32,270 bases of DNA from a virus: positions 1 through 32,270 of IMG/VR virus record IMGVR_UViG_3300042914_001846, one strand, 5' to 3'. A model generated the notes under the pieces. The model was not told where the DNA came from and searched no databases. It saw nothing but the letters and a program-made list of their open reading frames with translations. Positions within the stretch are counted from its first letter, which is position 1; each line of letters starts with the position of its first letter. Shown piece after piece: positions 512-22,541 of the stretch. The translations under genes and the position numbers were made by a program.

Positions 512-583
512 ATGAATAACTATAAAATTAATTTACTATTAGGTATCCCCATTGAGCCTCCTAATTTTAATTTAGATCAGTAA
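512..583 (+). CDS. Possible 23-residue micro-ORF at the convergent junction
   Basis: ATG at 512 lies one base after the TAA of the 92-aa gene and the frame runs 23 codons to TAA at 581-583. It crosses the end of the leftward DUF4815 gene by 7 nt. No Shine-Dalgarno sequence is visible, so translation would rely on coupling to the upstream stop. It is too short for composition to be informative and may be chance. Confidence 0.2.
   Translation: MNNYKINLLLGIPIEPPNFNLDQ
538..565. terminator. Weak hairpin between convergent genes
   Basis: ATTAGG and CCTAAT form a 6-bp stem around a 16-nt loop, followed on the plus strand by TTTAATTTA. It sits where the rightward genes meet the leftward virion operon, a sensible place for a (possibly bidirectional) terminator. 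The stem is short and AT-rich and the loop is long, so the call is tentative. Confidence 0.25.
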
Positions 584-3393
584 ACAGCTCCCTTCAGTTT
601 CATAATATAAGGTACTATTTCAACATTCTGACTACTAAACTCTATTTTTAAAGTTAATTTAGTTCTCAACATTCTAGAAGTATTACCATTGATATCTGTA
701 CTTACTGTAGTAGGGTCTAAATTCTTAACTACCCAAGTACCTTTATATAAAGGTATATTCCCATTTACTAACCCTACACTAGTAGTATCTAACTGTATTG
801 CTTGCCAAGTTTCCCCAGTATTAGAACTGAATGCTACATTAATGCTAGTTCCAGTAGGTTTATAGTAATCAAACTCTACTTCTACATTTCTATAACCTTT
901 TTTGTAATCTATAGTTCTGCTAACCCAAGTCCCAGTCTTCTTATTTTCATGGATAGTAAAGTCAGATTGATTTAGCAATACTATAGGAAACAAGTTAGCA
1001 GTACCACTTAAAGATAACTTAATATCAACTTCACTTCTGTTGCCTTCTATTGGTTGACTAGAGTTAAGAGGTAACCAACTGCCATTAACATTCTTATAGA
1101 AGTATTCTACTTTAGTAGCCTGAGGACAAATAGTCTTAATATTTCTGTTAATAAAGTGAATATTACCTAAAGGATTACTAATCTTGTAAACTAGTTCACT
1201 ATTGCTAACTGAAGGTACTGCTTGTACTAACTGAAAAGTTAAGTCTTTAGATAACTCTCTATTCCAGTTAAAAGGTCCACATAATACTAATTTTTTAGTT
1301 ATTAAGTCTCCTCCAATTAAAGGTTGCAAATCAGAAACAGAACTAGAATTAAGACTTCTTTGACCTTGTTCAGCATAGTAAAACTCTAAAGGTTGACCAT
1401 TAGTTAAAGGAGCTATTACTAAAGCATATTGTCCTGTAGATGTTAAAGGGACGGGTATATCAAAATTAACTGAACTAAATCTTGTACCATCTGAAGATAA
1501 GTTAACATCTATTAATTTTAGTAACCCTTGTCCTAATACTTCTCCAGTAGGTAAATCATTTGTAGCTTTTACTATGGAGACTAAAGCAACATTAGTATTA
1601 AGATTATTAAACTGAGGAACTCTTCTTAAAGCTAAATTTACTTTACTAAGCATTAAAGGAGCTTGGATAGTAAAAGTTTGAGCAATACTAGAATTATTGT
1701 CTAATTTAGTTAACTCACTACCTTTATCTCTAAATAATACACTAGCTGACTGATTACTATTAGATACTGTAATAGTGTATTGTTTGTAAAGTAAGTTAGC
1801 TGGCACATTAAAAGTTAACTTAAAACCGCCATCTTCACTAGCTTTAATAGTGTTAACACTAGTTCCTAAAACTCCTTTAAGTAAGTTAAACTCAGTAATC
1901 TGAACATTACCAAATACTATTTTTAAATTATCTGCACTAGAATTAAATCCATATCCTTCTAATGTTACTAAAGTTGTTTCTAAAGTAGAAGTAATAATTA
2001 CGTTACTTGGAGTTTGTACTTCTAACTGATAGGAATTAAAAGGTTCTAACTCAGTTAAAGATTGGTACTCTTTAGTTAACTTATTAGGAGAACCATTAGA
2101 AGGATTAATTGTAATAGTAGCTCTAGATGCAGAGTCAGTTAAACTAACAAAACCAGTAGCTCTATCTTGCTGTATTACTACATTCTCACTAAGAATGGGA
2201 GTAGCAATATAAGGTAATCCATCTTTACTATTTACCTCTATACTTGCAGAGGATAACTGAGTTAAGTTACTAAAGTTCAGGGTGTTAAAAGTTACTCCAC
2301 TTCTCAATAAACCATATTTAGGAATTATAGAAGAATTGTATTCTATGTTATTAATGTCACTATTATTTAGGTTAACAAAAGAGTCAACTACAATACCTAA
2401 CAAATTAGAGTCTTCAAATGTAAACTTATCTACAGATTGCTTACTAAGAGTATTCTCTAAATATATTTCTTGATTTAGTTTATTTCTACTAAATAATAAC
2501 TTTAAATCTGAGTTAGTAACTGGTCTAGCTTTAGTAGACAATACTTGAAGTTTACTATTTACTCTTTCTATTAATCCTAAGAATATAGAGTTAGGTTTAG
2601 AAGTGGGGGCAGCTTTCTGTAAAATTAAACCACCATAGTAAGTTAAATAAACAGAATACTGTGCAGTTACTTCTCTAACTATGTTAAAAGAGGAGGGGTA
2701 ATAAAGCTCTACTAACCTACCATTTATATAAGCTTTTCCCGCATTAATACCAACTGTATTAATAGAAGTAATAGATAACTCTAATCCTTCAGCTACAAAG
2801 TTACCAGCCTCTTCATATATTCTTTGAGCTAAGTAATCTGTAATTAAAGAAGTAATATATTGATTACTATATTGTAATGAATAACCTTTCTCTCTATAGT
2901 AAAAGATATAAGGATAATTACTAATAGATTCTCCTTGAATTACAGCTATAGGAAAACTATCTGCATTTAATACTATCTTAGAACTAACTACTAACCTATC
3001 TGCACCCATGTCGCCACACAACTCACCCCCTATTAAAGGGTCTCTAAATTCAGTGACAGTAATAAACTCAGGATTGATACCTACATAAGTTCTTTGACTG
3101 TATAAAGCTAAAAAAGTAGTCTCAGGTATAGCTACAAAGTAACCTTTATTCTGAATTCTAATAAACACTTGACCTTTAGATAACTTCATCAAGTAACCTT
3201 CAGAAGTAAAACTATCTAAAGTAATCTGCAATCCTTTTATAATTCTGTAATTAGAAAATAAGTAGTCAAAAGCCTGAGTCTGTTGGTAGTTAATTAAAGA
3301 TTGTATTTCATTAAATTCAGCAGCTTGAGTTTTTTTATCAGGTCTAAATAGTATCTTTTGCCAAGTAGGATCAAATCTATCAAAGTAAGTCAT
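577..3393 (-). CDS. DUF4815-type baseplate/tail periphery protein (smaller paralogue, 938 aa)
   Basis: The N-terminus (RFDPTWQKILFRPDK, then AAEFNEIQSL at residues 24-33) matches the pattern of the phage DUF4815 family. So does the later FRDP...G.MGADRL segment near residues 116-133. Around residues 470-565 lies a beta-rich segment like an Ig/IPT-TIG module (EGYGF, then VPANLLYKQYTITV). A beta-sandwich-like region follows, and the C-terminal ~120 residues (GTWVSR...Y) are shared with the next gene upstream. DUF4815 proteins are virion proteins of myoviruses, thought to form baseplate or fibre-base parts. GAGG lies 5 nt before the ATG. It is the last gene of the leftward operon, starting 7 nt after the end of its paralogue. 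Its exact role, fibre network or adhesin scaffold, is inferred. Confidence 0.75.
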   Translation of the reverse strand: MTYFDRFDPTWQKILFRPDKKTQAAEFNEIQSLINYQQTQAFDYLFSNYRIIKGLQITLDSFTSEGYLMKLSKGQVFIRIQNKGYFVAIPETTFLALYSQRTYVGINPEFITVTEFRDPLIGGELCGDMGADRLVVSSKIVLNADSFPIAVIQGESISNYPYIFYYREKGYSLQYSNQYITSLITDYLAQRIYEEAGNFVAEGLELSITSINTVGINAGKAYINGRLVELYYPSSFNIVREVTAQYSVYLTYYGGLILQKAAPTSKPNSIFLGLIERVNSKLQVLSTKARPVTNSDLKLLFSRNKLNQEIYLENTLSKQSVDKFTFEDSNLLGIVVDSFVNLNNSDINNIEYNSSIIPKYGLLRSGVTFNTLNFSNLTQLSSASIEVNSKDGLPYIATPILSENVVIQQDRATGFVSLTDSASRATITINPSNGSPNKLTKEYQSLTELEPFNSYQLEVQTPSNVIITSTLETTLVTLEGYGFNSSADNLKIVFGNVQITEFNLLKGVLGTSVNTIKASEDGGFKLTFNVPANLLYKQYTITVSNSNQSASVLFRDKGSELTKLDNNSSIAQTFTIQAPLMLSKVNLALRRVPQFNNLNTNVALVSIVKATNDLPTGEVLGQGLLKLIDVNLSSDGTRFSSVNFDIPVPLTSTGQYALVIAPLTNGQPLEFYYAEQGQRSLNSSSVSDLQPLIGGDLITKKLVLCGPFNWNRELSKDLTFQLVQAVPSVSNSELVYKISNPLGNIHFINRNIKTICPQATKVEYFYKNVNGSWLPLNSSQPIEGNRSEVDIKLSLSGTANLFPIVLLNQSDFTIHENKKTGTWVSRTIDYKKGYRNVEVEFDYYKPTGTSINVAFSSNTGETWQAIQLDTTSVGLVNGNIPLYKGTWVVKNLDPTTVSTDINGNTSRMLRTKLTLKIEFSSQNVEIVPYIMKLKGAVY

Positions 3394-3400
3394 ATTTACC

Positions 3401-6400
3401 TCAGGCTACATAAGTTTTAATATTAAGCACGTTAGGTTGAATGGCTACATTATTAGTAGTAAACTCTACTTTCCACCTAAATCTATTTCTACCTTCTCCA
3501 TTACTTATATAAAGAGTTTCATTAGATAATTTCCATGTAGCTTGCTTAACTTGTAACCCTGCATCAATAAATTTATCAGTAGTGGTATCTTTAGTTAGCT
3601 CAAACCATTCTTGACCTTGGGTAAGTAAACCTTCATTAGGACTATAATAAACTTTAATATTAGTTTCATCAGGTTGTAAGTAATCTAAAGTCACATATAT
3701 GTCTTTATACAGGCTATTATAAGTAATCTGATTAGATATAATATAAGAACTAGATAAACCTAGATACAAACTAACTGAAGAACCTTGCAACATCAATGCA
3801 GGAGAAACATTGTTTCTTAGTGAAGATAACTTAGCTCTAATGGCTACATGGAATACAGGAGTATCTAAACACACTAATTTATTAGAGTCAAAGTTAACCC
3901 AAGTATTAGTTCCAATAAGCTGGTATTGATATTGAATAAAAGTATCTGAAGGTAATATATCTCTACTATTTAAACAAAAGGAACTAACAGAACTTAAGTT
4001 ATCTACTATACCATAGTTGCCTAAATTAACAATAACCTCATTAGCAATAGTAAAAGTAGCTTTTTGTAACTCATAAGTTAAGTCTTCCCTTTCTAATCTA
4101 TTTAAAGCTTTACCCTCATTAGAATAAAATAGCTCCCCTTCTAGATAAAGTTGGTCTCCTACTAATCCTCCAGTAAGTAAATCAGTTCCAGCAACTTCAG
4201 CACTAAATACTTTATATCCACTACCTTTAGAATAAAGACTAAAATTATAAAGTTTCTTAGGATCTATTAGTATAGGATAACTAAAAGTAAACTCAGTCCA
4301 ATTAATGCCATTTGTAGAAGGTTGGTATAGATTACTAAAAGCACTAGAATAATAACTTCTGTTAGGAGCTTTATCAACTAAATCAGCTTCTCCTAAGTTA
4401 ACTATTAAGTCTTCATTTAGGTCTATAGACTTTAGTTTTAATTTTACTTTAGTTAAGTAACAGTAGTCGTATACTTTAAAAGTTTGATAGATAGAATCAA
4501 ACAATATAGGAAACTGCTGTTCTGTAGTTAAAGCGGTTGAACTAATATTAGGTAGAGTGCCAGGATTGACTATACTGCTATTAAACTGAAAAGTTTGAGA
4601 ATCATATCTATTAGACTTTAACTTTAGTAAAAAAGAATCTGCTATAGGTTTATTAAAAGATATATCCCAATTTTCTAAAGTAGATATAACTATCTGACTA
4701 AATAAATTATTGTAGACTCCTATTTGAGTTTTAGCATAACCTTTACTACCAGTTGAAGCTACAGATACAACTTCTAAACTATGAGAACCAAAGACTAAAT
4801 CAGTAGGTATAGTAAAACTAAAAGAAATAGTACCATCACTTTTACTTCTTATACTACCTGGATACTCTACTGATAAAGGTGTACTGTCTAATAAAGTATA
4901 GTTTCTTATCTCAGTTCCAGATAAATATACTTTATACCCCCCATTGTTAGGAGGTAATTCTTCTACTTTTACTTTAACTAAGTTAGTATTAGACTTAACT
5001 AAATTAGATATATATCCAAAAAAGCTAACTGTATTCTGAAATATATTTCCTATAGGAGTACCTTCTATAAAAGACTTATATAACTTTTCTCCAAAAGACT
5101 TAAATAATACTTGATTATTAGTAGATATATTTTGAAGTATTAAAGACTTATTATCTGAAAGTCTAGTAAGTAAAGTAGTAGCTTTTGCTAAAGGGTCACA
5201 AGAAGTAAACTTACTAAAAGGTTTATTATTAAAAATTAATTCAGGATAAGCTGTAATTTTAGCTCTTTTGTTAATATTAATCTGAGAATTTACTGTTCTA
5301 ATTTTAGTTAATCTATTTTGAGATAACAGTACAGAGTTAGAGTAAGGTAATGTTACAAAATAGCTATTTCCAAACTCATTGTTACTTACTGTACCTCCAG
5401 ATACATACTTTAAGTTAACATCTTTATGTGTGTAGCCTCCAGTAAGAGATTGTATAGAAGGTGATATAGCCCCTGTACTGTTATCCAAGTTTACTTTAGA
5501 TAAATCTTGAAGAGAGTTATTGTAATAACCTATAGGGGTTACTTCATTACTAGCAGCATCTAATTGAGCAGCCACATCTAACTTTTGGTTCCCTAACTCA
5601 CAAGTATTCTTTTTAACTAACTCTACAATACTTTGAATCTCTTCATTTCTTAGTATTTTACAATCAGAAGGAGTTACTTCAATAGAGTTAGCATATACTT
5701 TAAAAGTAGCTAAAGGTAACAGATTATTAGCTACAACAGGTAATTCAGTTACTCCAGAAGAAGATAGAGTATAGTTTAGATTACCTTCTTTATCTAAAAT
5801 TATTACTCCTATTTTAAAAAGATAGTAAGTGTAGTCTACATAAAATCTCTGATTAGGAGCAGGTGTAGTATTAATAAACTCAATAGAATCAGTAACTTGA
5901 TTTAATTGGTAATCAGTTCCTTTAGCTAAAGGTTGAGTATATAAAAAAGATACATAGTAAGTAGTCCCAGCAGAGGGTTCCCTAGCATTTACAGAACTTA
6001 AAGACCAATCTATTTCAGACTGATTAATTAATTGATAGTCTACTCCTTCTACATAAGTAGTATCTGCCTGGAATACTTTAACTATTTTAAATATAGAATC
6101 ATCTCCTAACTTATCTGTAGTTCCTGAAATTACTCCTCTAACTATAGGTTTATTATACTCAGCTAACTCAGCAGTTACATTAACTACATCTGCTACTGGT
6201 CTAAATCCTAATTGATAAGAGTTAGAACTACCTGCCCCTGATAAGTTAGCTGAGTTAACATTTACTAATAAAACTTCAGAGTTCCCTACTATAACATTAT
6301 TAGTATCTCTTTCTTTGATAGTTATATTAACTTCTATTTGATTAGCTATTTCATTTAAAGTAGTGGATGTCACTTCTAAAGCAGAACCAACTCTATTTAT

Positions 6401-7801
6401 AACTAAATTATTTTTAATTATAGTTCTTAATATCTCACTGCTTAATATTAGAGTAGTAGAACTAATGTTTATAGAGCTTAAAGTTTGATTAATAGGTTTA
6501 TTAACTTGAATAGTTATAAAATCAAGTAGACTATTTATACTATTAAAAGAAGTATTATTTAAAGACAATTCAAGTTTAATATCTACAAACTGCTGGTTAT
6601 AGAGAAGTTTAGTAAACTCAATAACCAATAAAGTGTTTTGATTAACTACATCAGACCATAAAGAGTTATTCTCTAAACTAAAAGTTCTTAAAGTAGTAGC
6701 TTGATTACCAGCATAAGTAAAAATAGCCCCATTAACTTTACTAACTTCTAAACTCTTAGGCACTTCTAATACTACAGGAGATAGTATAGGAACTCTGTAC
6801 CCTTCTACATAAGCAACTCCAGGAGATACAGAAAAGTAAACTTTATCAGTAAGTAAACTTTTAGCACTAGTTAAAGACTGTTGAGCTTTATCTGAGATTA
6901 TTTTTTTACTTGTATACAATCTAGATAATTCATTATATCTAGCTGTAATATCTTCTAACCTTAATTCCAAGTCTTGTAAAGCAATTAAATTAGAGTTAGT
7001 TGGGGTTCTGTTGTAAACTAAAGTAGCTGCTTGAACTTGAGAAGTTAAGTTATCTACAGAAGTTTTAGCATTTAATACTTGAGAATAAGCATTTTGAGTT
7101 TCATTAACTAAGTTTGTAGTATTGTCTTGTAAAGCATTATATTTAGCTACATCTGTAACTGCTTTGTCAGTAGCTTCAATAACAGATACTTCTAAACCTC
7201 CCGGTAAACAAAAGTTTCCTGTTCTAGCATAAGTATAGTTAGCCAAAGATTCATCTATTTTGGAGTAAAGGTTAGTTTCTCTTTGAATCAAACCTCCATT
7301 AACTACTCTAGCTAAAGTAAAAGCAGTAGTATCATCTATTACTAAAGTAGTATTCCAAATTAATCTAGCTGCACCAGGTAAACCATATAAAGCTCCTTCT
7401 TTAACAGGGTCTCTTAAATTAGGTACTTCTTCTTCAGTAATAATAGATGGAGTAATAGATAACCCTATATTAAACTCTCCAGTATTATTAACCGTAATAG
7501 TTTGTTCTGGTACATCTAACACAATTCCATCTACATAGAACTTACCAGATGATATAGTAAATATACTTTCATCTACTGTTTTAGATAGTAATTCAAACTT
7601 AAGCCCATAGATGACAGTACCATTAGCAAACAAAGTATCTAAACCTTGTTTCATAAAGTCCTGCATTAGTGACTGCATCTCTATTAACTCAGCAGTCTGG
7701 AGAGGTCTACCATGATTAAAAAGTAGCTTTACCCAACCTGTCTCTCTTGTGTATCTATCTCTATAATCACCAGAATTAAAGTTATATAAATTAGTTGCCA
7801 T
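3401..7801 (-). CDS. DUF4815-type baseplate/tail periphery protein (larger paralogue, 1466 aa)
   Basis: This protein shares its N-terminal module with the neighbouring 938-aa protein (GWVKLLFNHGRPLQTAELIE at residues 22-41; NLRDP...G.PGAARL at 128-147) and also the C-terminal module. It differs by a strongly helical, heptad-like insertion of about 105 residues (roughly 212-318), just before the SPGVAYVEGYRV strand region, where the shorter paralogue has only a few residues. An Ig-like segment (VPTD-type strand pattern SFTIPTDLVFGSHSLEVVS) and a jelly-roll-like region occupy the second half. It probably assembles at the baseplate periphery as a fibre or fibre-attachment protein. No Shine-Dalgarno sequence is visible before the ATG, which lies one base from the stop of the 192-aa gene, suggesting coupled translation. 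Confidence 0.75.
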   Translation of the reverse strand: MATNLYNFNSGDYRDRYTRETGWVKLLFNHGRPLQTAELIEMQSLMQDFMKQGLDTLFANGTVIYGLKFELLSKTVDESIFTISSGKFYVDGIVLDVPEQTITVNNTGEFNIGLSITPSIITEEEVPNLRDPVKEGALYGLPGAARLIWNTTLVIDDTTAFTLARVVNGGLIQRETNLYSKIDESLANYTYARTGNFCLPGGLEVSVIEATDKAVTDVAKYNALQDNTTNLVNETQNAYSQVLNAKTSVDNLTSQVQAATLVYNRTPTNSNLIALQDLELRLEDITARYNELSRLYTSKKIISDKAQQSLTSAKSLLTDKVYFSVSPGVAYVEGYRVPILSPVVLEVPKSLEVSKVNGAIFTYAGNQATTLRTFSLENNSLWSDVVNQNTLLVIEFTKLLYNQQFVDIKLELSLNNTSFNSINSLLDFITIQVNKPINQTLSSINISSTTLILSSEILRTIIKNNLVINRVGSALEVTSTTLNEIANQIEVNITIKERDTNNVIVGNSEVLLVNVNSANLSGAGSSNSYQLGFRPVADVVNVTAELAEYNKPIVRGVISGTTDKLGDDSIFKIVKVFQADTTYVEGVDYQLINQSEIDWSLSSVNAREPSAGTTYYVSFLYTQPLAKGTDYQLNQVTDSIEFINTTPAPNQRFYVDYTYYLFKIGVIILDKEGNLNYTLSSSGVTELPVVANNLLPLATFKVYANSIEVTPSDCKILRNEEIQSIVELVKKNTCELGNQKLDVAAQLDAASNEVTPIGYYNNSLQDLSKVNLDNSTGAISPSIQSLTGGYTHKDVNLKYVSGGTVSNNEFGNSYFVTLPYSNSVLLSQNRLTKIRTVNSQININKRAKITAYPELIFNNKPFSKFTSCDPLAKATTLLTRLSDNKSLILQNISTNNQVLFKSFGEKLYKSFIEGTPIGNIFQNTVSFFGYISNLVKSNTNLVKVKVEELPPNNGGYKVYLSGTEIRNYTLLDSTPLSVEYPGSIRSKSDGTISFSFTIPTDLVFGSHSLEVVSVASTGSKGYAKTQIGVYNNLFSQIVISTLENWDISFNKPIADSFLLKLKSNRYDSQTFQFNSSIVNPGTLPNISSTALTTEQQFPILFDSIYQTFKVYDYCYLTKVKLKLKSIDLNEDLIVNLGEADLVDKAPNRSYYSSAFSNLYQPSTNGINWTEFTFSYPILIDPKKLYNFSLYSKGSGYKVFSAEVAGTDLLTGGLVGDQLYLEGELFYSNEGKALNRLEREDLTYELQKATFTIANEVIVNLGNYGIVDNLSSVSSFCLNSRDILPSDTFIQYQYQLIGTNTWVNFDSNKLVCLDTPVFHVAIRAKLSSLRNNVSPALMLQGSSVSLYLGLSSSYIISNQITYNSLYKDIYVTLDYLQPDETNIKVYYSPNEGLLTQGQEWFELTKDTTTDKFIDAGLQVKQATWKLSNETLYISNGEGRNRFRWKVEFTTNNVAIQPNVLNIKTYVA

Positions 7802-7802
7802 A

Positions 7803-8381
7803 TTAAAGTTTTAATAATAGTTGGAATATAGACGTTTTAGCAAGTATGTTACTCTTAAATATGGGTGTAAAGTAAGAAGCCCAGTATAAACTACCTTGAT
7901 TGACTACAGAAGTGGGTAAGTATCTAATTTGTCCTGGGTTAGTAAAAGTAACATTTTTAAATAACCCTGCCACTCTAAAGTTTTCTATATTGGCAAAAGT
8001 TAAATCACTTTCTTCAATCAGTATTCTAAAGTAAAGATAATCTGGGGATATTGCTTCTAAAGTTTCTCTATTAGTAGTTTGTAAGTTAATAAGAGTTAAC
8101 TCTTGATTTCCTATAACCTCTCCACAACTTTCAAACTGTATACCCTCACATTGGCTTTTAGTTGCTAAAGTTTTATATATAGGCTGTTTATATAACTTGA
8201 TATCTGGAATGCTAGTTATAGTTTCTTCAAGGCTAGGCGGATTTTCTTCACTTACATCAGCTCCCCAACTATTATTCCAAGCTGTGTTCTTACCTATAGC
8301 AAAAAAGTAAGTAGAGTTCACTAAGTAAAGTAGTCTATCTACTTTACTAATACTAGTATTTATATTTCTAAATATTGTCAT
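7803..8381 (-). CDS. Small baseplate wedge-like structural protein, 192 aa
   Basis: Residues 26-35 read FFAIGKNTAW, followed after a short gap by ENPPSLEE (46-53). This aromatic-AIG-x3-W then PP signature is common at the N-termini of myovirus baseplate/fibre-base proteins (pattern FYxAIGRxxPW...PPxP), so a baseplate wedge role is likely, though I cannot name the T4 counterpart. The gene overlaps the end of the FAD-protein gene by 14 nt. It has a good ribosome site (AAAGGA, 8 nt spacing) inside that gene, so the two are translationally coupled. No catalytic motif is seen. Confidence 0.55.
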   Translation of the reverse strand: MTIFRNINTSISKVDRLLYLVNSTYFFAIGKNTAWNNSWGADVSEENPPSLEETITSIPDIKLYKQPIYKTLATKSQCEGIQFESCGEVIGNQELTLINLQTTNRETLEAISPDYLYFRILIEESDLTFANIENFRVAGLFKNVTFTNPGQIRYLPTSVVNQGSLYWASYFTPIFKSNILAKTSIFQLLLKL

Positions 8382-9489
8382 GTTCTATATCCTTTATAAT
8401 CTCTTTGGCTGTAATACCTGCTGATATTAAAGAATGCTGTCTTGGTCCATCATAAGCAGTAGCTAGTATACCTGACACATACCAATTAGCATCGGCGTAA
8501 TTAAGTTTAAAGTTATTAGTTATATCTGGAAAGTTAGCTATATAAGCATTAGTATTTACTTCTAAAGGAAGTGAATTTAAACTAGGAACTAAACCAGCAA
8601 CTAAACTAATATAATCAACCTCTACGTTAATAACTTCAGAGTAATCTTTAACTATTAATTTTTTAAAGTTAGTATTTTTAAGCTTACTTGCTATATAAGA
8701 AGTGATAGAAGGCTGCCATTGCTTAACTTTATTCAAGTAATTTAATCTGTCTTTATAGTTAGTTAAACTTTTGTAATAGCTTCCTAACGCTGATTTAGTT
8801 CCCCATTCTTTATAGTTAGGTGCAGGATACTGATTTAATTTAGGTTCTTTTTTAATAACCCAAGTTACTTCACCTGTTAATTTACTACTAAAATAGTTAA
8901 CTTGTTCAGCAGCTCCTTGACCTGACCCCAATACTAACCATTTCTTATTAAAGTAATCTTTAGGCTTTTGTAATATATTATTTAACTTAATTACTCTATC
9001 TTTTAGACTGGTATTTTTAATCCAACTAGGTATATTATCTTTACCTTTATACCCAATACAGAATACTACAGCATCTCCTTTTATAGATTTACCATTAGCT
9101 AAATTAACAGTATTACCCTGTACAGAAGTTACTGTTTGTTTGACTAACTTTACTTTATTATCTAAAAGGTACTGTAATACCCATTCAAGATAACTACAGA
9201 AGTCTTCTCTGTTTACTTTAATATCACAAGATTCTATAGCTGTTTGATTATTAGTAAAAGGTAAATTGTATTCTAAATATTTATTTAAACTAAACTCTTG
9301 AAGTTCCTCTAAATAAGTTACTAAATCAAAAGTAAGTGGACTTCTCATTTGTAAATCTTCTATTAAGTAGTTAGAAGTCCAAGTATGTAAAGGAGAAGGG
9401 TCTATTAAAGTAACTTTATGGCATTTATATAGAGCATACAAAGCTACAGATAATCCTCTTGGACCAGCTCCTACAATAGTAATTTTCAT
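8368..9489 (-). CDS. FAD/NAD(P)-binding oxidoreductase (SidA/NAD_binding_9-like) embedded in the baseplate operon
   Basis: The protein is 373 aa. It begins MKITIVGAGPRGLSVA, a textbook beta-alpha-beta dinucleotide fold (GAGPRG, residues 7-12), with an acidic residue ending the second strand (LIDP, 28-31). A hydrophobic FCIGY segment (143-147) takes the place of the usual ATG motif. A second Rossmann motif GSGQGAAE (188-195) resembles the NADPH site of N-hydroxylating monooxygenases such as SidA/PvdA. The C-terminal YVSGI...GPRQHSLISAGITAKEII (337-365) fits the closing FAD-contact segment. Such enzymes oxidise small molecules using FAD and NAD(P)H in the cytosol, and the substrate here is unknown. 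It lies between two virion genes, 33 nt after one and overlapping the next by 14 nt, with GGGAG upstream. It has all the major motifs and no frameshift, so it is probably functional. A reduced or structural role is also possible. Confidence 0.8.
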   Translation of the reverse strand: MKITIVGAGPRGLSVALYALYKCHKVTLIDPSPLHTWTSNYLIEDLQMRSPLTFDLVTYLEELQEFSLNKYLEYNLPFTNNQTAIESCDIKVNREDFCSYLEWVLQYLLDNKVKLVKQTVTSVQGNTVNLANGKSIKGDAVVFCIGYKGKDNIPSWIKNTSLKDRVIKLNNILQKPKDYFNKKWLVLGSGQGAAEQVNYFSSKLTGEVTWVIKKEPKLNQYPAPNYKEWGTKSALGSYYKSLTNYKDRLNYLNKVKQWQPSITSYIASKLKNTNFKKLIVKDYSEVINVEVDYISLVAGLVPSLNSLPLEVNTNAYIANFPDITNNFKLNYADANWYVSGILATAYDGPRQHSLISAGITAKEIIKDIEHDNI

Positions 9490-9522
9490 ATAGAGTAAAC
9501 TCCCTTATTTTTCTTGACATAT

Positions 9523-11889
9523 TTATTCAATTAATAATTCATTATTATCTTCTAACATTAGATTAGATAACTGGGTGTCTGTTGAGTCTTTGTCTTCTAA
9601 ACAATTAGCAGATTCCGCTATAAAATTTACTAAGGTAATAACTTCATTTAGTATACTTTTAGTAGCTACTGGTAAACTGTTATTAATTTCTTTCTCAATA
9701 ATACTAGTAATAGGTTGAAGTACAGTAACTTCTGCAATGTTAGTAGAAGCATAATTAGTACCTATATAGTAATCAGTTCCTAATAATGTTTGACTCTTAG
9801 TAGAATTTAACTTTAGTATTTGATTATAAGGTTCTGAATTAAAGTTAGCAACATTGAACCTATTAATCTTTTTAGATAAACCTACAGAAGTTATACTATT
9901 TTCTTGCCCTCCTAGTACGGAACTGATATAGCTAACTAATTCAGAGTCTAACTCTTGAGGTAATCTAAAAAATCTTAGAAGTTTAGTATAAGTTAATAAT
10001 CTAAACCCTTTTAAAGAATTTAAATAGTTATTAGAGATTATATCTTTGCTAAATACATTAAAAGTAGAAAGGTTATTTCCTATACTTTTTAGTAGTTTGT
10101 ACACACTACCAGTAAACTGTAAAGCTTTCTTAGCAAACCAGCCATAATTAGTAGGTAAATCCAATAACTTTTTTAATATTAAACTTCTTTCAAATGACAA
10201 ACTAGAAGTCAAATAGTAATCTCCTTTCTGTATAACTTCTAAATTATACAAACTAGGATTACTTAAACAAGAACATAGATATACAACAGTATTAGTAGAC
10301 TCTACTCTATTTAAAGTATCTAAAAAAGTAGTTATATAATTCTGTAACTTAAAAGATAAATAGTATAGATTACTGTTACTAATATCTAGTAAAGAAGTAT
10401 AAGGATTAGTTAAAGTGGTAAAGTTCAAAGAAATAGGATTAATCTTTAAGTAGTCTTGAGATAGCTTATTTAAGTTAACTATATTGACTCCATTTAAAGA
10501 TTCTTTAACTACTCCATAATCAAGTATTAGATTACTTTCTATTTTAGTTATAAGGTTTTCTACTACATCTGCTCTATTTACTAAATTACTAAATAGTAAA
10601 CTATAAGATATATCTTCTATGTTAAAAGTATTAAACTCTTTCTTTTTAAAATTATAAAATGTTGACCATATAGCTTCTTCTATATTAGTAGCTGTTTCTA
10701 AATAAGTAGAGTTAACTGTGTAATCATAATGTTTAAGTAAAGCAATATAAACTACTACAGCAGTTGACAGATTATATTCTACTATTTCTTCTGACTCAGA
10801 TAACACATCTGCGTGAGTCCACCCTTTACTAGGTAGATTATTAGTGGCATTAATCTGATTTACTAGATAGAAAGCTAATAAGTCTAAAAGATAAGTATAT
10901 TGAGAATTATCTAAATAAAGGCTGTAAGTGTAGATTAACAAATAAAACCAAGCTATAGCTCTAGTAGATACTTCTCTAGAAGAAGTTATAAATACAGATT
11001 TGCTGACTAAACACTCATCATCAACACATTCTTGATTTACACACCTAGCTATATTGTCTAAATAAAATTTATCCTCATAAAGTAAATCTGAAGTTAGATA
11101 AGTAGTAAGAGTCTTAGGAATACTGTTTAGTCTTCTAGAAGTTGATTTAAAATCTACTAAATCAACAATAGCACTTATGTTATCTTCTATAACTTTTTTT
11201 ATATAAAAGTCTAATTCACCTTTAATAAAATACTTTACAGTATTTAATTCTGTAGATTTATAAGTAGAAAATATTAGGTTAATTAGTCCTTGAGATAATA
11301 ACTCTAAATCAGATTGCTGATCTTCAGCGTTATACTCTAGTAAGTACCCAATTTTAGTTCTAGTTATTCTTTTATTATTTTTGTACTCTCCAAATGAATG
11401 TAAAACAGAAGTAGTTTGGCTATAAGATACTTTTCTTAATACAGCTAACTTAATGCCTTCTGGTAAAGTTATTCTAGATTTAAAGTAACCTTTATTATTA
11501 ATAGATACTGATTTATCTTTAATTAGAAAGTCACCTGTAACAGAGGATACAATACCTAAATCTAATACCCATACATTACCTTCAGAATCTAAAGAGCCAG
11601 CCACCCAATATTCTGTAATTCCATTATTATCTCTACTAATATTAGAAGTGATAGCAGTAGTCCATATACCACCCTCTACTACACAACTTTCCTCTACACA
11701 AAAAGGATCTAATACAGCTTTACTTGATAAGTTCAGATTACTAATAATACCTTCTAAGTAAAATTTATCTGTAAATTGACTACCTTTAATAAACTTAAGA
11801 GTAATCTTTTTATTATTAAAAAGAATAGACTCTCCTCCAGGTTGGTGTAAGTTAACTAATCTTTCATAACATATATCTTGAGTAGACAA
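9523..11889 (-). CDS. Large baseplate-operon protein with possible alpha-toroid domain, 788 aa
   Basis: The start is TTG, not ATG: AGGAGG lies exactly 5 nt upstream, the best ribosome site in the window, and overlaps the end of the J-like gene. The N-terminal ~200 residues are beta-rich. There are two cysteine clusters (FCVEESC at 63-69; CVNQECVDDEC at 283-293) that might bind metal or form disulfides. Residues ~300-520 are helical, with phrasing typical of six-hairpin (alpha/alpha) toroids (STAVVVYIALLKHYDYT, YLETATNIEEAIW). The family could be a degenerate glycosidase-type toroid used structurally or for surface glycans, but I see no assured catalytic acids. The position after the J-like wedge protein suggests a baseplate component. 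Confidence 0.6.
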   Translation of the reverse strand: MSTQDICYERLVNLHQPGGESILFNNKKITLKFIKGSQFTDKFYLEGIISNLNLSSKAVLDPFCVEESCVVEGGIWTTAITSNISRDNNGITEYWVAGSLDSEGNVWVLDLGIVSSVTGDFLIKDKSVSINNKGYFKSRITLPEGIKLAVLRKVSYSQTTSVLHSFGEYKNNKRITRTKIGYLLEYNAEDQQSDLELLSQGLINLIFSTYKSTELNTVKYFIKGELDFYIKKVIEDNISAIVDLVDFKSTSRRLNSIPKTLTTYLTSDLLYEDKFYLDNIARCVNQECVDDECLVSKSVFITSSREVSTRAIAWFYLLIYTYSLYLDNSQYTYLLDLLAFYLVNQINATNNLPSKGWTHADVLSESEEIVEYNLSTAVVVYIALLKHYDYTVNSTYLETATNIEEAIWSTFYNFKKKEFNTFNIEDISYSLLFSNLVNRADVVENLITKIESNLILDYGVVKESLNGVNIVNLNKLSQDYLKINPISLNFTTLTNPYTSLLDISNSNLYYLSFKLQNYITTFLDTLNRVESTNTVVYLCSCLSNPSLYNLEVIQKGDYYLTSSLSFERSLILKKLLDLPTNYGWFAKKALQFTGSVYKLLKSIGNNLSTFNVFSKDIISNNYLNSLKGFRLLTYTKLLRFFRLPQELDSELVSYISSVLGGQENSITSVGLSKKINRFNVANFNSEPYNQILKLNSTKSQTLLGTDYYIGTNYASTNIAEVTVLQPITSIIEKEINNSLPVATKSILNEVITLVNFIAESANCLEDKDSTDTQLSNLMLEDNNELLIE

Positions 11890-11890
11890 G

Positions 11891-12952
11891 CTAACCTCCT
11901 GTATTTAAAGTCAAGTCTATATTTCTAATCTTTAGTAAAGTGTCTTTAAGTGCGGTTACTTTAGAGGCAGCAGGATCAACTATTCTTATGTCTCTAATAC
12001 CTTGAATGTTAGAGCAAAGTACAGCTAAATTAACTGGATATAACTCTTGTCCCAATTCTAACCCCTCAAAATAGTTAAAACATATCTGTCTAATATTATC
12101 TGCTACACTTTCTGCAAATTCTACTGAAGTTAAAGTTACTATAAATCTTAGGTCAATAAAAGTAGTTTGTATTGACTTAATTTCAAAAGCAGTACCTATA
12201 GGTTTAACTAACATTAAACTTTCTTCTACTAAATCTATTAAAGATTGATCTAATGTATTTACATAAACAGTAAAATAGCCAGTAACAGGATAACCTTCTT
12301 TAATAAAAAACTTAGTAATGTTAAGCTCATTTAACTTATTAATTACAGCATCTATAGTACCTTTAGATTGATTGTTAATTTGAGATATTATCCTATTTCT
12401 AAAAGAAAGATCAGACTCAGAACTTCTGCCTCCTTCTAGACCTCCTATATAGTTTCCAGTTAAACCCACAGAGTTAGCTACTACAAACTTTATGTTAGGG
12501 TAAAAAGAAGAAGTTAATACTGTACCTGCATTAAGGTTAGCTAACTCTGTAGCCAACAAAGAAGTAATAGGTATATAAACTCCAATGGCAGTTGATATTG
12601 CAGATTGAGTAGTTTGAAACTGATAATTAATATTAGGTGAATTAAGTATAGTGTTAACTGGAATCGTAGTATCTACAGTAGATGTAGTAAACACATAACC
12701 AGAAGCAAAGCTACCTTGATTTCTAACTATATTAAAATCTCTAGCTCTAGCATCTAAGTTATCTTTAGTAGCACTAGCTAAAAAACTATTTAAGTAGTAG
12801 TTATCTAAGTCAGAATACTGCTGACTTATAACTGCCCCTATACTCCTAAATATCATAAAGATATTACTATAGTTAGTAAAAGAAGCTAGAGGAGAACCTA
12901 AGTTAGTAAGGTTAGTTTTAAAAGAATTAATTATTTCTGTAATAGATTTCAT
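11891..12952 (-). CDS. Baseplate wedge protein, J-like (P2 gpJ/T4 gp6 family)
   Basis: The protein is 353 aa and matches the baseplate J-like family. It has an N-terminal helical region ending LDARARDFNI and a strand region with SGYVFTTS and IPVNT. The diagnostic GGLEGGRSSESDLSFRNRI (residues 170-188) is the family's GGxDxESDxxxRxRI signature. After it come the helix-strand arm domains. J/gp6 proteins form the wedge ring that links the central hub to the fibre-bearing periphery. It directly follows the gp25-like gene, 6 nt apart, as in P2-like and Mu-like tails. No Shine-Dalgarno sequence is obvious. Confidence 0.9.
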   Translation of the reverse strand: MKSITEIINSFKTNLTNLGSPLASFTNYSNIFMIFRSIGAVISQQYSDLDNYYLNSFLASATKDNLDARARDFNIVRNQGSFASGYVFTTSTVDTTIPVNTILNSPNINYQFQTTQSAISTAIGVYIPITSLLATELANLNAGTVLTSSFYPNIKFVVANSVGLTGNYIGGLEGGRSSESDLSFRNRIISQINNQSKGTIDAVINKLNELNITKFFIKEGYPVTGYFTVYVNTLDQSLIDLVEESLMLVKPIGTAFEIKSIQTTFIDLRFIVTLTSVEFAESVADNIRQICFNYFEGLELGQELYPVNLAVLCSNIQGIRDIRIVDPAASKVTALKDTLLKIRNIDLTLNTGG

Positions 12953-19102: not shown

Positions 19103-19698
19103 ATGACTAAAGTAATAGATATAACTGAACAATTGTTTGGGAAATTAACCGTTATTAACAAAAAAAGTAAAGCATTATAGTTATGTAAATGTGAATGCGA
19201 AAAGGAGACTTTAGTAACTAGTAAATCTTTAAGAGCTGGTACTACCAAAAGTTGTGGATGTATAGTTAACAAACATAATATGACTGATACTCCTACTTGG
19301 AATAGCTGGAGAGCTATGATAAGAAGATGCTATGAATTTAATAGCACTCAATATTTTAAGTATGGAGCTAAGAAAATTAAAGTTATTGAAAGATAGCATG
19401 ATTTTGTTAACTTTCTAGAAAAATACATAATAACACTACTTTAAATAAAATTAACAATAAAGGTAATTATGAACCTAGTAACTGTAAATGGGCTGATAAC
19501 TTTACTCAAAATAATAACAGAGGAGATTACAATACTAAATTAACTTTAGATTCAGAAACTAAAATTATAGCTGAATGGTATAGAGATTTAAATATAAAAC
19601 CTACAGCAATTATAGAAAAATTAAGAAGGGATTAGTCTGTAGAAAAAGCTGTATAAACTCTATTTAGACAACTAAAAAAGCAGCCTAAAATTGAATAA
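19103..19698 (+). pseudogene. Broken HNH homing-endonuclease-like gene (SWRAM/NYEPSNCKW family)
   Basis: On the plus strand the decayed frame reads ITEQLFGKLTVI, CKCEC, TTKSCGC, TPTWNSWRAMIRRCY, VIER-HDFVNFLEKY, then after a frameshift INNKGNYEPSNCKWADN. This is the order of the free-standing phage HNH/AP2-like endonucleases (Cys-rich ribbon, SWxxMxxRC, ERWxxFxxF, NGNYEPxNCRW). In-frame TAG codons occur at 19178-19180 and 19394-19396, then TAG 19633 and TAA 19654 after the shift. About ten residues that normally precede the catalytic DRI(D/N)NNGNY segment are missing at ~19425-19436. It lies opposite to the surrounding genes and overlaps the 3' end of the lysin gene by 14 nt. It is presumably a dead homing element. 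It occupies the only stretch over 300 bases without an intact gene. Confidence 0.8.
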
Positions 19699-20872
19699 AC
19701 TTTGTAGGGTCTACAGCATTGTCTCTACTTAAACGCGTCTCAAAATGCAAATGTTTACCCTGGCTACTTCCTGAATCACCTACTCCACCTATTACCTGAC
19801 CTTGTTTAACAGTCTGTCCTAAGCTAACAGCAGCAGAACTTAAGTGAGCATACAAAGTATATAAACCTTGATGTTTTAAAAAAACAATATTCCCATATCC
19901 TCCAAATCCCGGAGCTCCACAACCATATTTAGGAGTAACAGGACAACTAATGTGTATAGCATCTACAACTCCATCAGCAGCAGCATAAATAGGAGTTCCA
20001 AGAGAAGCAGCTAAGTCTACTCCTCTGTGCATTTTTCCCCATCTCCACCCAAATTTACTAGTAAAAGTATAAGGCTTCTTTAAAGGAATTATTAAACCCC
20101 CAGGTTTCAACTGACCGTTATAAGGTTCAGCAGCCTGACTTCCATTATCTTGAGATTGCCCATTAGCTTGATTATTAATAGCATTTACGCCAGGGGCAGC
20201 AGCCCCACTACCTAGACCATTACCAAAGATAGGATTAGCAGTCTTCTGTAAACAGCCTGGATAAATAATTCTATCTTGCTGAGTATAAAGGGGCGGTGGG
20301 CAATTCTGACCTGTAAGTAGTGCAGACTGTATACCTGATTGAAGTGTAGCTAAACCATTAGAAATAGCAGAACCAGCATCTTGAACTAGAGAACCTACTT
20401 GGTTAGCTGTTTGCTCAACAGAATTTAAAGGGTAGTTTACTCCAGAAGACTTACCTAAAAATAAATCTCTTTCAGCTTTTCTTCTTCTAGATAATCCTAG
20501 TAATACATTTCCTGTAATATCTTTATTAATATCTAAAAACTGATTTGCTGCTTCATTAAAATTTCCTGAATTCAAAGCAGCCATCAACTTGGGAAATTGT
20601 TTAATATTTCCTGTATTAAAATTAAGACTAGCTAATGCAGCCAATTGATTATCATTTAAAGGTCTATTTACATAACTTAAAACATTATTAACTGATGATT
20701 GTAATTCATCTCTTAATCTTTTCTCAGCTTCTTCTTTAGATATTATTTCTGTAGATGACTTAGCTCTTGTTCCATAACCAATAGAATAGTGACCACGATC
20801 CCAATATGCTTTAAGTTCACATCCTTCAAAGTGTTTAACAATATCAAGTAGTGCCTGGGGTACTTGTGCCAT
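19685..20872 (-). CDS. Bifunctional lysin: GH24 lysozyme plus M23 endopeptidase, 395 aa
   Basis: Residues ~5-140 form a T4/P21-type lysozyme. FEGCEL carries the likely catalytic Glu16, D25 lies nine residues later, and SIGYGT (30-35) follows, with Ser30 apparently in place of the usual Thr. A Gly/Ala/Asn-rich linker follows. Residues ~258-395 are an M23 (LytM-type) metallopeptidase: HRGVD gives H282 and D286, YAHL gives H343, and HLHFE gives H374 and H376. It would cut glycan strands and peptide cross-bridges. No signal peptide is present, so it is either a tail-borne lysin or an endolysin needing a holin. Being directly after the spike-amidase gene, a virion-associated role is plausible. The single candidate ribosome site AAAGG is 12 nt upstream, in a hairpin stem. 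Confidence 0.9.
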   Translation of the reverse strand: MAQVPQALLDIVKHFEGCELKAYWDRGHYSIGYGTRAKSSTEIISKEEAEKRLRDELQSSVNNVLSYVNRPLNDNQLAALASLNFNTGNIKQFPKLMAALNSGNFNEAANQFLDINKDITGNVLLGLSRRRKAERDLFLGKSSGVNYPLNSVEQTANQVGSLVQDAGSAISNGLATLQSGIQSALLTGQNCPPPLYTQQDRIIYPGCLQKTANPIFGNGLGSGAAAPGVNAINNQANGQSQDNGSQAAEPYNGQLKPGGLIIPLKKPYTFTSKFGWRWGKMHRGVDLAASLGTPIYAAADGVVDAIHISCPVTPKYGCGAPGFGGYGNIVFLKHQGLYTLYAHLSSAAVSLGQTVKQGQVIGGVGDSGSSQGKHLHFETRLSRDNAVDPTKFIQF

Positions 20873-20945: not shown

Positions 20946-22541
20946 CTACTCATCCCCAATACCAAAAAAGATTTCTTTAGTTTTTGGATAGTTATTCCAC
21001 AGTTTCTCAAACTTAACTCTATCAAAACTTCTGGGGTCAATATTTGGAGAAATATTAGGTTGTGTTATATTAACTTCTTTGTGAGTAGTTATTCTTTCTA
21101 ATGGTACTCCTGTTTTAGCAGTTAACCAAGCAAGTGAATTATACTGGGCTTCTGTATATCCAGAATGTGTAGACTTATTATCATTAGGGGGTTGTCCATC
21201 TACAGGAGTTTCAAAAGATATATGGTAAGCAAAACTATTAACTGATTTAACTTTTTTACCATCATCTCTAACTCTTTCTTCAAACTCTTCTTTAAACTGA
21301 GAAGGTGCAGCCCCAAATGCTCTTTTTTTAGGGTCAGTAAAGTAAACTAAACCGCCATCAAGTTTAATCATTACATGATAGCTAACTTGAGCTTTGGGAT
21401 TTTGAAAAAGGTTAATTACAGAGTTAGCATTACCTATAGTTTCATGTAAAACTATTAAAGGTTTAAATTTAGTTTGAGTTCTCTCTCCATAATTAGTAGC
21501 AGCAACACTAGACTTCTCTTCATTAGGTTTATAGTCAGGTTTAGTTTGCTGCCCTTCTACAGATTGTTCTCCTTGGGGTAACTCACTACCTGAAGAAGTT
21601 TGCATTTGTAAACCTACTAACTGCCTAGCAGTATCTCCTCTATTACAAGATTGAGCCTGCTCTAAATACATTTGAGCTAACTTTTTATACTGATCTATAA
21701 AGTATTGATCAGTAAATGGGCTTCTTAAATTAGATTGACTCTTAGGATTACTTTGTTTACTAACAATAGGTTTTATTCCTGTAGTTTTCTTAGCTTCTTC
21801 TGGGGTAGTTTCCCTAATAATAGAAGTTTGAGCTAACAAATCAGCTTGTCTATTATAGTAATTAGCATATTCTATTAACTTAGCACATTTACTTTCAGCA
21901 GTACCTTCTGCCACATTTATAATATTAGCAGTATAGTTAATTATAGAATTATAAGCATAGTTGACTTTATCTCCTATAGAAGTAGCTAAATCTATAATTC
22001 CAGGTTGTCTGTTAGCTTTAGCTTTGTCTTTTATGTTATTTGTAAATCTAGCATCACTAAAAGTATTAAATAAGTTATTAGCACCATAAAAAGTAGCAGT
22101 AGCTCCAGGGTCAGTAATTCTATTAGGATGCCCTGATGGTTGGTTAATCTCAAATAACTGATTACTATATTCTTCTAATTGAGCAAACTCTTGAAGTTTA
22201 CCTTCACTATAATACTTATTATAATTACCTTCAGTATACAAAGTTCCAGTTATAATACCATTCTCTCCTATACCTTCAGCACAAGTATAAGTTACTAGAG
22301 TCCCTTCATCTAATGGGGCGTATCTACCTACTCCATTAAAGCCTCCAGTTGGAGATTGATATTTACAACCTAAGAATAAGGCACCTGTCTCTAAATCTTG
22401 TACATCATAAGTTTGAGCTAAATGGTTTTCTCTACTTACATTTACTACTACTCCTTGCTTTACTCCTATATTACTTCTATAAATATTATCTGCATTTCTA
22501 TTAGTATATGTATTATTAGGATTTAATATTTGATCAAACAT
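20946..22541 (-). CDS. Tail spike/hub protein with N-terminal OB-fold and C-terminal N-acetylmuramoyl-L-alanine amidase, 531 aa
   Basis: The N-terminal ~105 residues (VKQGVVVNVSRENH, FLGCKYQSP, APLDEGTLVTYTCAEG, ENGIITGTLY) have the strand pattern of the gp5/gpV-type OB-fold that plugs the tail tube. A long polar helical linker follows (to about 355). Residues ~358-515 match the Amidase_2/PGRP fold: LHET (H366), SYHV (H389), AYHISFET (H440, E444), THKEV (H487) and IDPRSF (D502). H366, H487 and D502 fit zinc-ligand positions. It would cut the MurNAc-Ala bond during DNA injection, as gp5 lysozyme does in T4. AGGAG lies upstream, overlapping the end of the hub gene. No beta-helix needle is evident. 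Confidence 0.8.
   Translation of the reverse strand: MFDQILNPNNTYTNRNADNIYRSNIGVKQGVVVNVSRENHLAQTYDVQDLETGALFLGCKYQSPTGGFNGVGRYAPLDEGTLVTYTCAEGIGENGIITGTLYTEGNYNKYYSEGKLQEFAQLEEYSNQLFEINQPSGHPNRITDPGATATFYGANNLFNTFSDARFTNNIKDKAKANRQPGIIDLATSIGDKVNYAYNSIINYTANIINVAEGTAESKCAKLIEYANYYNRQADLLAQTSIIRETTPEEAKKTTGIKPIVSKQSNPKSQSNLRSPFTDQYFIDQYKKLAQMYLEQAQSCNRGDTARQLVGLQMQTSSGSELPQGEQSVEGQQTKPDYKPNEEKSSVAATNYGERTQTKFKPLIVLHETIGNANSVINLFQNPKAQVSYHVMIKLDGGLVYFTDPKKRAFGAAPSQFKEEFEERVRDDGKKVKSVNSFAYHISFETPVDGQPPNDNKSTHSGYTEAQYNSLAWLTAKTGVPLERITTHKEVNITQPNISPNIDPRSFDRVKFEKLWNNYPKTKEIFFGIGDE

Follow-up and report, generated by a model that had tools for sequence, protein, structure and literature searches.

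Why should a flavin-dependent oxidoreductase be encoded among the tail genes of a phage? Phage baseplates are usually described as made up of structural proteins, lysins and depolymerases. A sequence-only reading of the 32,270 nucleotides of viral DNA analysed here (the window, a 32-kb virus record) singled out the minus-strand ORF 8368-9489, whose product is referred to below as FLAVO, as a flavoprotein gene built into a baseplate operon. Its coordinates, the length of 373 aa, the ATG start, the overlap of 14 nt with the next gene and the spacing of 33 nt to the preceding one (9523-11889, g05) were re-read from the sequence and are as that reading gave them, and the tail-gene setting was borne out by matches of the neighbours to BW3TFN, Baseplate_J, DUF4815 and sheath families (Table 1).

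Elsewhere the window contains the C-terminus of a major head protein, a sheath gene, and lysin-like and hub genes; scanning it for Rfam families and tRNA gave no match and no tRNA. The stretch 577-7801 is occupied by two tandem DUF4815 paralogues, the first of which appears in contigs L003 and L022 as a pair of overlapping ORFs (858 and 614 aa), possibly a split gene or a frameshift. The product of 20946-22541, of the baseplate type, carries an Amidase_2 domain (residues 362-490) in its C-terminal part, and the adjoining 19685-20872 has endolysin and metallo-endopeptidase matches.

Table 1. Features of the window around the FLAVO gene; residue numbers of motifs refer to FLAVO.
Feature	Coordinates	Strand	Remarks
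Second DUF4815 protein, 938 aa	577..3393	-	Paralogue of the 3401..7801 product
DUF4815 tail/fibre protein, 1466 aa	3401..7801	-	PHROG 877
BW3TFN-type connector (baseplate wedge 3 - tail fibre network), 192 aa	7803..8381	-	Pfam PF25691, E 7e-7
FLAVO, 373 aa	8368..9489	-	ATG start; putatively FAD/NAD(P)-binding, predicted N-hydroxylating-monooxygenase fold; PHROG 29209; Ma-LMM01 gp106 homologue
Overlap of FLAVO with the BW3TFN start, 14 nt	8368..8381	-	Overlap or very close junction in most relatives
Family-specific C-terminal YDGPRQHSLISAG, residues 346-358	8416..8454	-	DGPR invariant, 23/23 members
Family-specific YPAPNYKEW, residues 221-229	8803..8829	-	Y, P, P, W invariant, 23/23
NAD(P)-binding GSGQGAAE, residues 188-195	8905..8928	-	GxGQ in 23/23
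MRSPLTFDL, residues 48-56	9322..9348	-	Gapless alignment to MQ(I/V)SF(L/I)KDL of SidA/KtzI
FAD-binding GAGPRG, residues 7-12	9454..9471	-	G7, G9, P10, R11 invariant, 23/23 members
Shine-Dalgarno-like AAGGGAG	9500..9506	-	10 nt ahead of the FLAVO ATG
g05, 788 aa	9523..11889	-	N-terminal beta plus alpha/alpha-barrel-like part (~1-570) fused to BW3-like wedge domain (~580-750)
Baseplate J-like wedge protein	11891..12952	-	Pfam/PHROG matches

The flavoprotein, its fold and its substrate site

FLAVO is the product of a genuine gene and not of a chance ORF, as follows from its Pfam matches (Lys_Orn_oxgnase, E 8e-18; NAD_binding_9, E 9e-9; Pyr_redox_2), the PHROG 29209 profile covering residues 2-373, i.e., the full length (E 1.8e-65), a dN/dS of ~0.2 against the 83% identical relative in L002, and a structure model with pLDDT 91.3 and pTM 0.91. 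For its neighbours, dN/dS against L002 ranges from 0.08 to 0.18. Named relatives are found in ten records at 32-38% identity, belonging to Ma-LMM01-group phages of Microcystis and to Microcoleus phage My-WqHQDG; the putative host of the window's phage is taken by analogy from these relatives. Since gp106 of Ma-LMM01 is already annotated as "putative lysine/ornithine N-monooxygenase" and the family exists as PHROG 29209, the gene itself is not new; what is new is its constant position within a tail cassette and its altered substrate site, neither of which was described in the searchable literature. In the BFVD database the homologue of MaMV-DC was found, other viral matches being far weaker, which does not prove that closer ones do not exist.

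The best structural match of the FLAVO model is KtzI (Z 31.2, rmsd 3.1 over 347 residues), followed by PvdA (Z 30.4) and SidA (~29), with thioredoxin reductases at ~20; Foldseek likewise places the N-hydroxylating flavin monooxygenases closest, and PF13434 (Lys_Orn_oxgnase) is matched by 14 of 14 family members. Both dinucleotide-binding motifs noticed earlier, GAGPRG and GSGQGAAE, are present in the translation, and the proposed flavoprotein fold with two dinucleotide sites and SidA-type kinship is thus upheld by Pfam, motifs, predicted structure and structural comparison. Across 23 diverse members, GxGPR, GxGQ, RSPxxFDL, YPxP and DGPR are invariant; the final E of GxGQxAAE is replaced by D in the deep clade L065-L074.

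In SidA, ornithine is bound by K107, N293, N323 and S469, K107 being the lysine that contacts the substrate carboxylate (PMC8009421). The equivalent position in FLAVO is Phe54 (FDL versus KDL), and this Phe is invariant in the family, which makes ornithine or lysine an unlikely substrate; judging from the alignment, the name "lysine/ornithine hydroxylase" is probably wrong for FLAVO. Diamine and histamine enzymes likewise lack this Lys; DfoA and the histamine-type enzymes of cyanobacteria have Ala at the position (alignment; PMC8009421). The profile alignment of FLAVO with cellular monooxygenases ends near residue 205 and the C-terminal half is unaligned by sequence, so that the substrate site is not legible from the FLAVO sequence.

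A fixed place in the tail cassette of one phage lineage

Viral contigs were scanned with the FLAVO, Baseplate J and DUF4815 families, followed by profile searches. FLAVO stands directly before BW3TFN and DUF4815 in 27 separate contigs of IMG/VR, some ten of which are close to Ma-LMM01, and in the three named phages inspected, Ma-LMM01, MaMV-DH01 and My-WqHQDG; the scan seeds were FLAVO carriers, so the proportion of loci with FLAVO is not an unbiased census, and L042-L049, whose contigs end or diverge before the FLAVO place, were left out of the counts. The sequence-only reading held that absence of the gene from this place in related phages would count towards a mere cargo gene; instead, it stands there, in the same pairing, in nearly every phage of the clade. 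Its further remark that no standard tail gene of this type is known holds for the module of the SPO1/Herelleviridae type but not for the Ma-LMM01-like clade, where FLAVO is a core gene long annotated as an oxidoreductase.

FLAVO and BW3TFN share between 1 and 26 nt of coding sequence in most of these loci, and 43 nt in L066 if an alternative start is used; at the remaining junctions they lie a few bases apart, or 63 in L055. On the other side, the distance between g05 and FLAVO ranges from an overlap of a few bases up to ~6 kb. This slot, empty in the window, is variable (L002:8363-10004, L003:8407-9933, L004:11198-13870, L007:4050-9883) and holds tail-fibre-like genes in L002, L003, L004 (one of them with F5/8 type C domains) and Ma-LMM01.

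The FLAVO and DUF4815 trees agree (distance r 0.86, reached by none of 2000 permutations; 8 of 14 splits shared), a pattern of vertical inheritance of FLAVO with the tail genes, and no move of FLAVO to another genome place was seen among the scanned contigs. In cellular genomes the family is scarcely represented. The genome-contig scan gave one relative, on a phage-like contig of the cyanobacterium Elainella saxicola; among 386 cyanobacterial genomes the family was again confined to the Elainella contig, apart from four distant matches, of which the three scanned turned out to be two histamine-type N-monooxygenases and one dihydrolipoyl dehydrogenase. Canonical PF13434 enzymes occur in 3 of 79 sampled cyanobacterial genomes. 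A recent acquisition of the gene from a host is unsupported by this distribution. The Elainella contig (L022, LUGL01000101.1) carries the same tail cassette, and the IMG/VR contig L003 yields identical matches at identical positions; the Elainella cassette may belong to a prophage, a co-sequenced phage or a tail-like device.

Loci lacking FLAVO and the link to g05

Baseplate J, BW3, BW3TFN and DUF4815 genes are present, without FLAVO, in SPO1 and in the uncultured loci resembling it (L075, L076, L078 and L079). Two fragmentary records separate the components further. In L060 (67 kb), Baseplate J, BW3TFN and DUF4815 are kept, and searches of the whole fragment for g05 (with positive controls) and FLAVO gave no match; in L020 (39.8 kb), g05 and FLAVO are kept and followed by other fibre-like genes, with no DUF4815 match in the fragment and BW3TFN absent from the locus. 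A tight link of FLAVO to the fibres alone is weakened by both. Because L060 lacks both g05 and FLAVO and L020 keeps both without DUF4815, FLAVO appears to track g05 rather than the fibres, a link that draws on the sequences of one clade and these two fragmentary contigs of 39.8 and 67 kb. Among the fibre-like genes of L020, at the expected BW3TFN/DUF4815 position, lie two ORFs (L020:11782-12645 and L020:18371-19090) that start with GIYxIxNKxNGKMYxGKT and resemble GIY-YIG homing endonucleases.

The g05 gene is present in all FLAVO phages with the upstream region covered, and the named phage records containing it are the same ten as those containing FLAVO. BW3 of the SPO1 type matches the g05 profile only at the C-terminal part (~580-750, window numbering); the additional N-terminal part is carried by the FLAVO phages, being recognised only in patches in the deep clade L065-L074. 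In the g05 model, which is of moderate confidence (pLDDT 71), this N-terminal part includes an alpha/alpha barrel that is structurally most similar to glycosidases and sugar epimerases (7qsj, Z 19.5), and a part of the model matches a phi812 baseplate chain (Foldseek E 2e-3). The g05 relatives in L008 and L036 bear long Cys-rich inserts.

Possible roles and comparison with known systems

The constant place of FLAVO in this group of large phages, relatives of known cyanobacterial phages, suggests that it serves the making or the use of the tail and not ordinary metabolism. The explanation favoured here, still tentatively and at somewhat less than even chances, is a tail-dedicated flavin oxidoreductase of the N-hydroxylating-monooxygenase fold, fixed in the contractile-tail cassette of one clade and most likely directed at a tail component. 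Such an enzyme would bind FAD, draw electrons from NAD(P)H and oxidise a nucleophile, most likely an amine, other than free ornithine or lysine. It would be produced along with the fibre connector BW3TFN and probably next to it; the first candidate for its target would be g05 or whatever g05 binds, and the modification would be needed for assembly or host binding. A bolder version, which we regard as doubtful, places a working redox enzyme in the baseplate itself, FLAVO together with the barrel-like domain of g05 using flavin chemistry to act on a host-surface molecule or a protein of the tail.

Expression of FLAVO together with the virion genes, which the sequence-only reading assumed, is presumed from its position. 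In the Ma-LMM01 transcriptome paper, three of the five reported late genes are named (gp086, gp087, gp091), and its main text does not mention gp106 (PMC5780444). Co-transcription with its neighbours would not by itself mean that FLAVO acts on them. A literature search for virion proteomics of the Ma-LMM01-like clade found none, the MaMV-DH01 paper stating that mass spectrometry is still required (PMC9927357), and one for N-monooxygenases together with phage baseplates found nothing.

The constant position next to BW3TFN and the overlap of the two reading frames would also suit a former enzyme that now serves the baseplate or fibre network in a structural or chaperone-like capacity, with flavin bound and catalysis dispensable. 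The length of the family proteins (336-373 aa, versus ~430-500 aa in solved homologues) and the lack of a close cellular homologue in the genome-contig scan and the 386 cyanobacterial genomes are in line with this possibility, which is nevertheless rather unlikely: the FAD and NAD(P) motifs are invariant despite deep divergence, FLAVO is better conserved than its structural neighbours (38% identity between the window and the Microcystis phages, versus 22-27%), and it is retained in L020 despite the different fibre genes. Metabolic cargo, namely an NADPH oxidase or an enzyme for a soluble host metabolite (e.g., a diamine), lodged in the tail operon for expression only, is an alternative to which we give a similarly low probability. 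Cytosolic amine N-hydroxylases have the same fold, and the Lys-to-Phe change recalls the diamine enzymes, also devoid of that Lys (PMC8009421). Inheritance with the tail genes and the lack of any relocation speak against cargo, as do the restriction of the family to the phage-like contig among the cyanobacterial genomes and the rarity of canonical PF13434 enzymes in those sampled.

A further idea, that FLAVO is the redox partner of tail disulfides, was drawn by analogy from the disulfide-locked tail of phage Milano, with whose baseplate the BW3TFN family has been discussed (PMC10811340). The nine cysteines of g05, some of them conserved, would fit it. It is highly improbable, however, and was rejected because FLAVO has neither a CxxC motif nor an invariant Cys, its cysteines being limited to positions 23, 88, 98 and 144; moreover, the sheath has only 2 Cys, and by fold FLAVO resembles monooxygenases more closely than disulfide reductases.

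If the tail-dedicated enzyme is the right reading, an oxidoreductase that belongs to the core genes of a single tail lineage and tracks a single fused wedge protein would suggest that tail maturation or host entry includes a redox step. The data also suggest correcting a long-standing annotation of Microcystis phages, the gene being otherwise read as belonging to siderophore-type metabolism, and the system includes a cultured phage, Ma-LMM01.

FLAVO shares with SidA, PvdA, KtzI, DfoA and SsDesB (PF13434) the predicted fold (Z 29-31), both dinucleotide motifs and, by profile, the N-terminal half; it differs from SidA-type enzymes in the Phe replacing K107, in its own invariant YPxP and DGPR, in a shorter chain and in its location in a phage tail operon. 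The SPO1/Herelleviridae module (SPO1 gp14.2, 15.1, 16.1 and 16.2) has the same order of Baseplate J, BW3, BW3TFN and DUF4815 genes, but it lacks the flavoprotein gene and its BW3 is without the N-terminal part of g05. In Ma-LMM01, a 3.7-kb insert with a tail-fibre-like gene lies between g05 and FLAVO, and gp106 is shorter (~337 aa), yet it is 38% identical to FLAVO over 99% of the length and likewise precedes a BW3TFN-like gene, gp107, and a DUF4815 gene, gp108.
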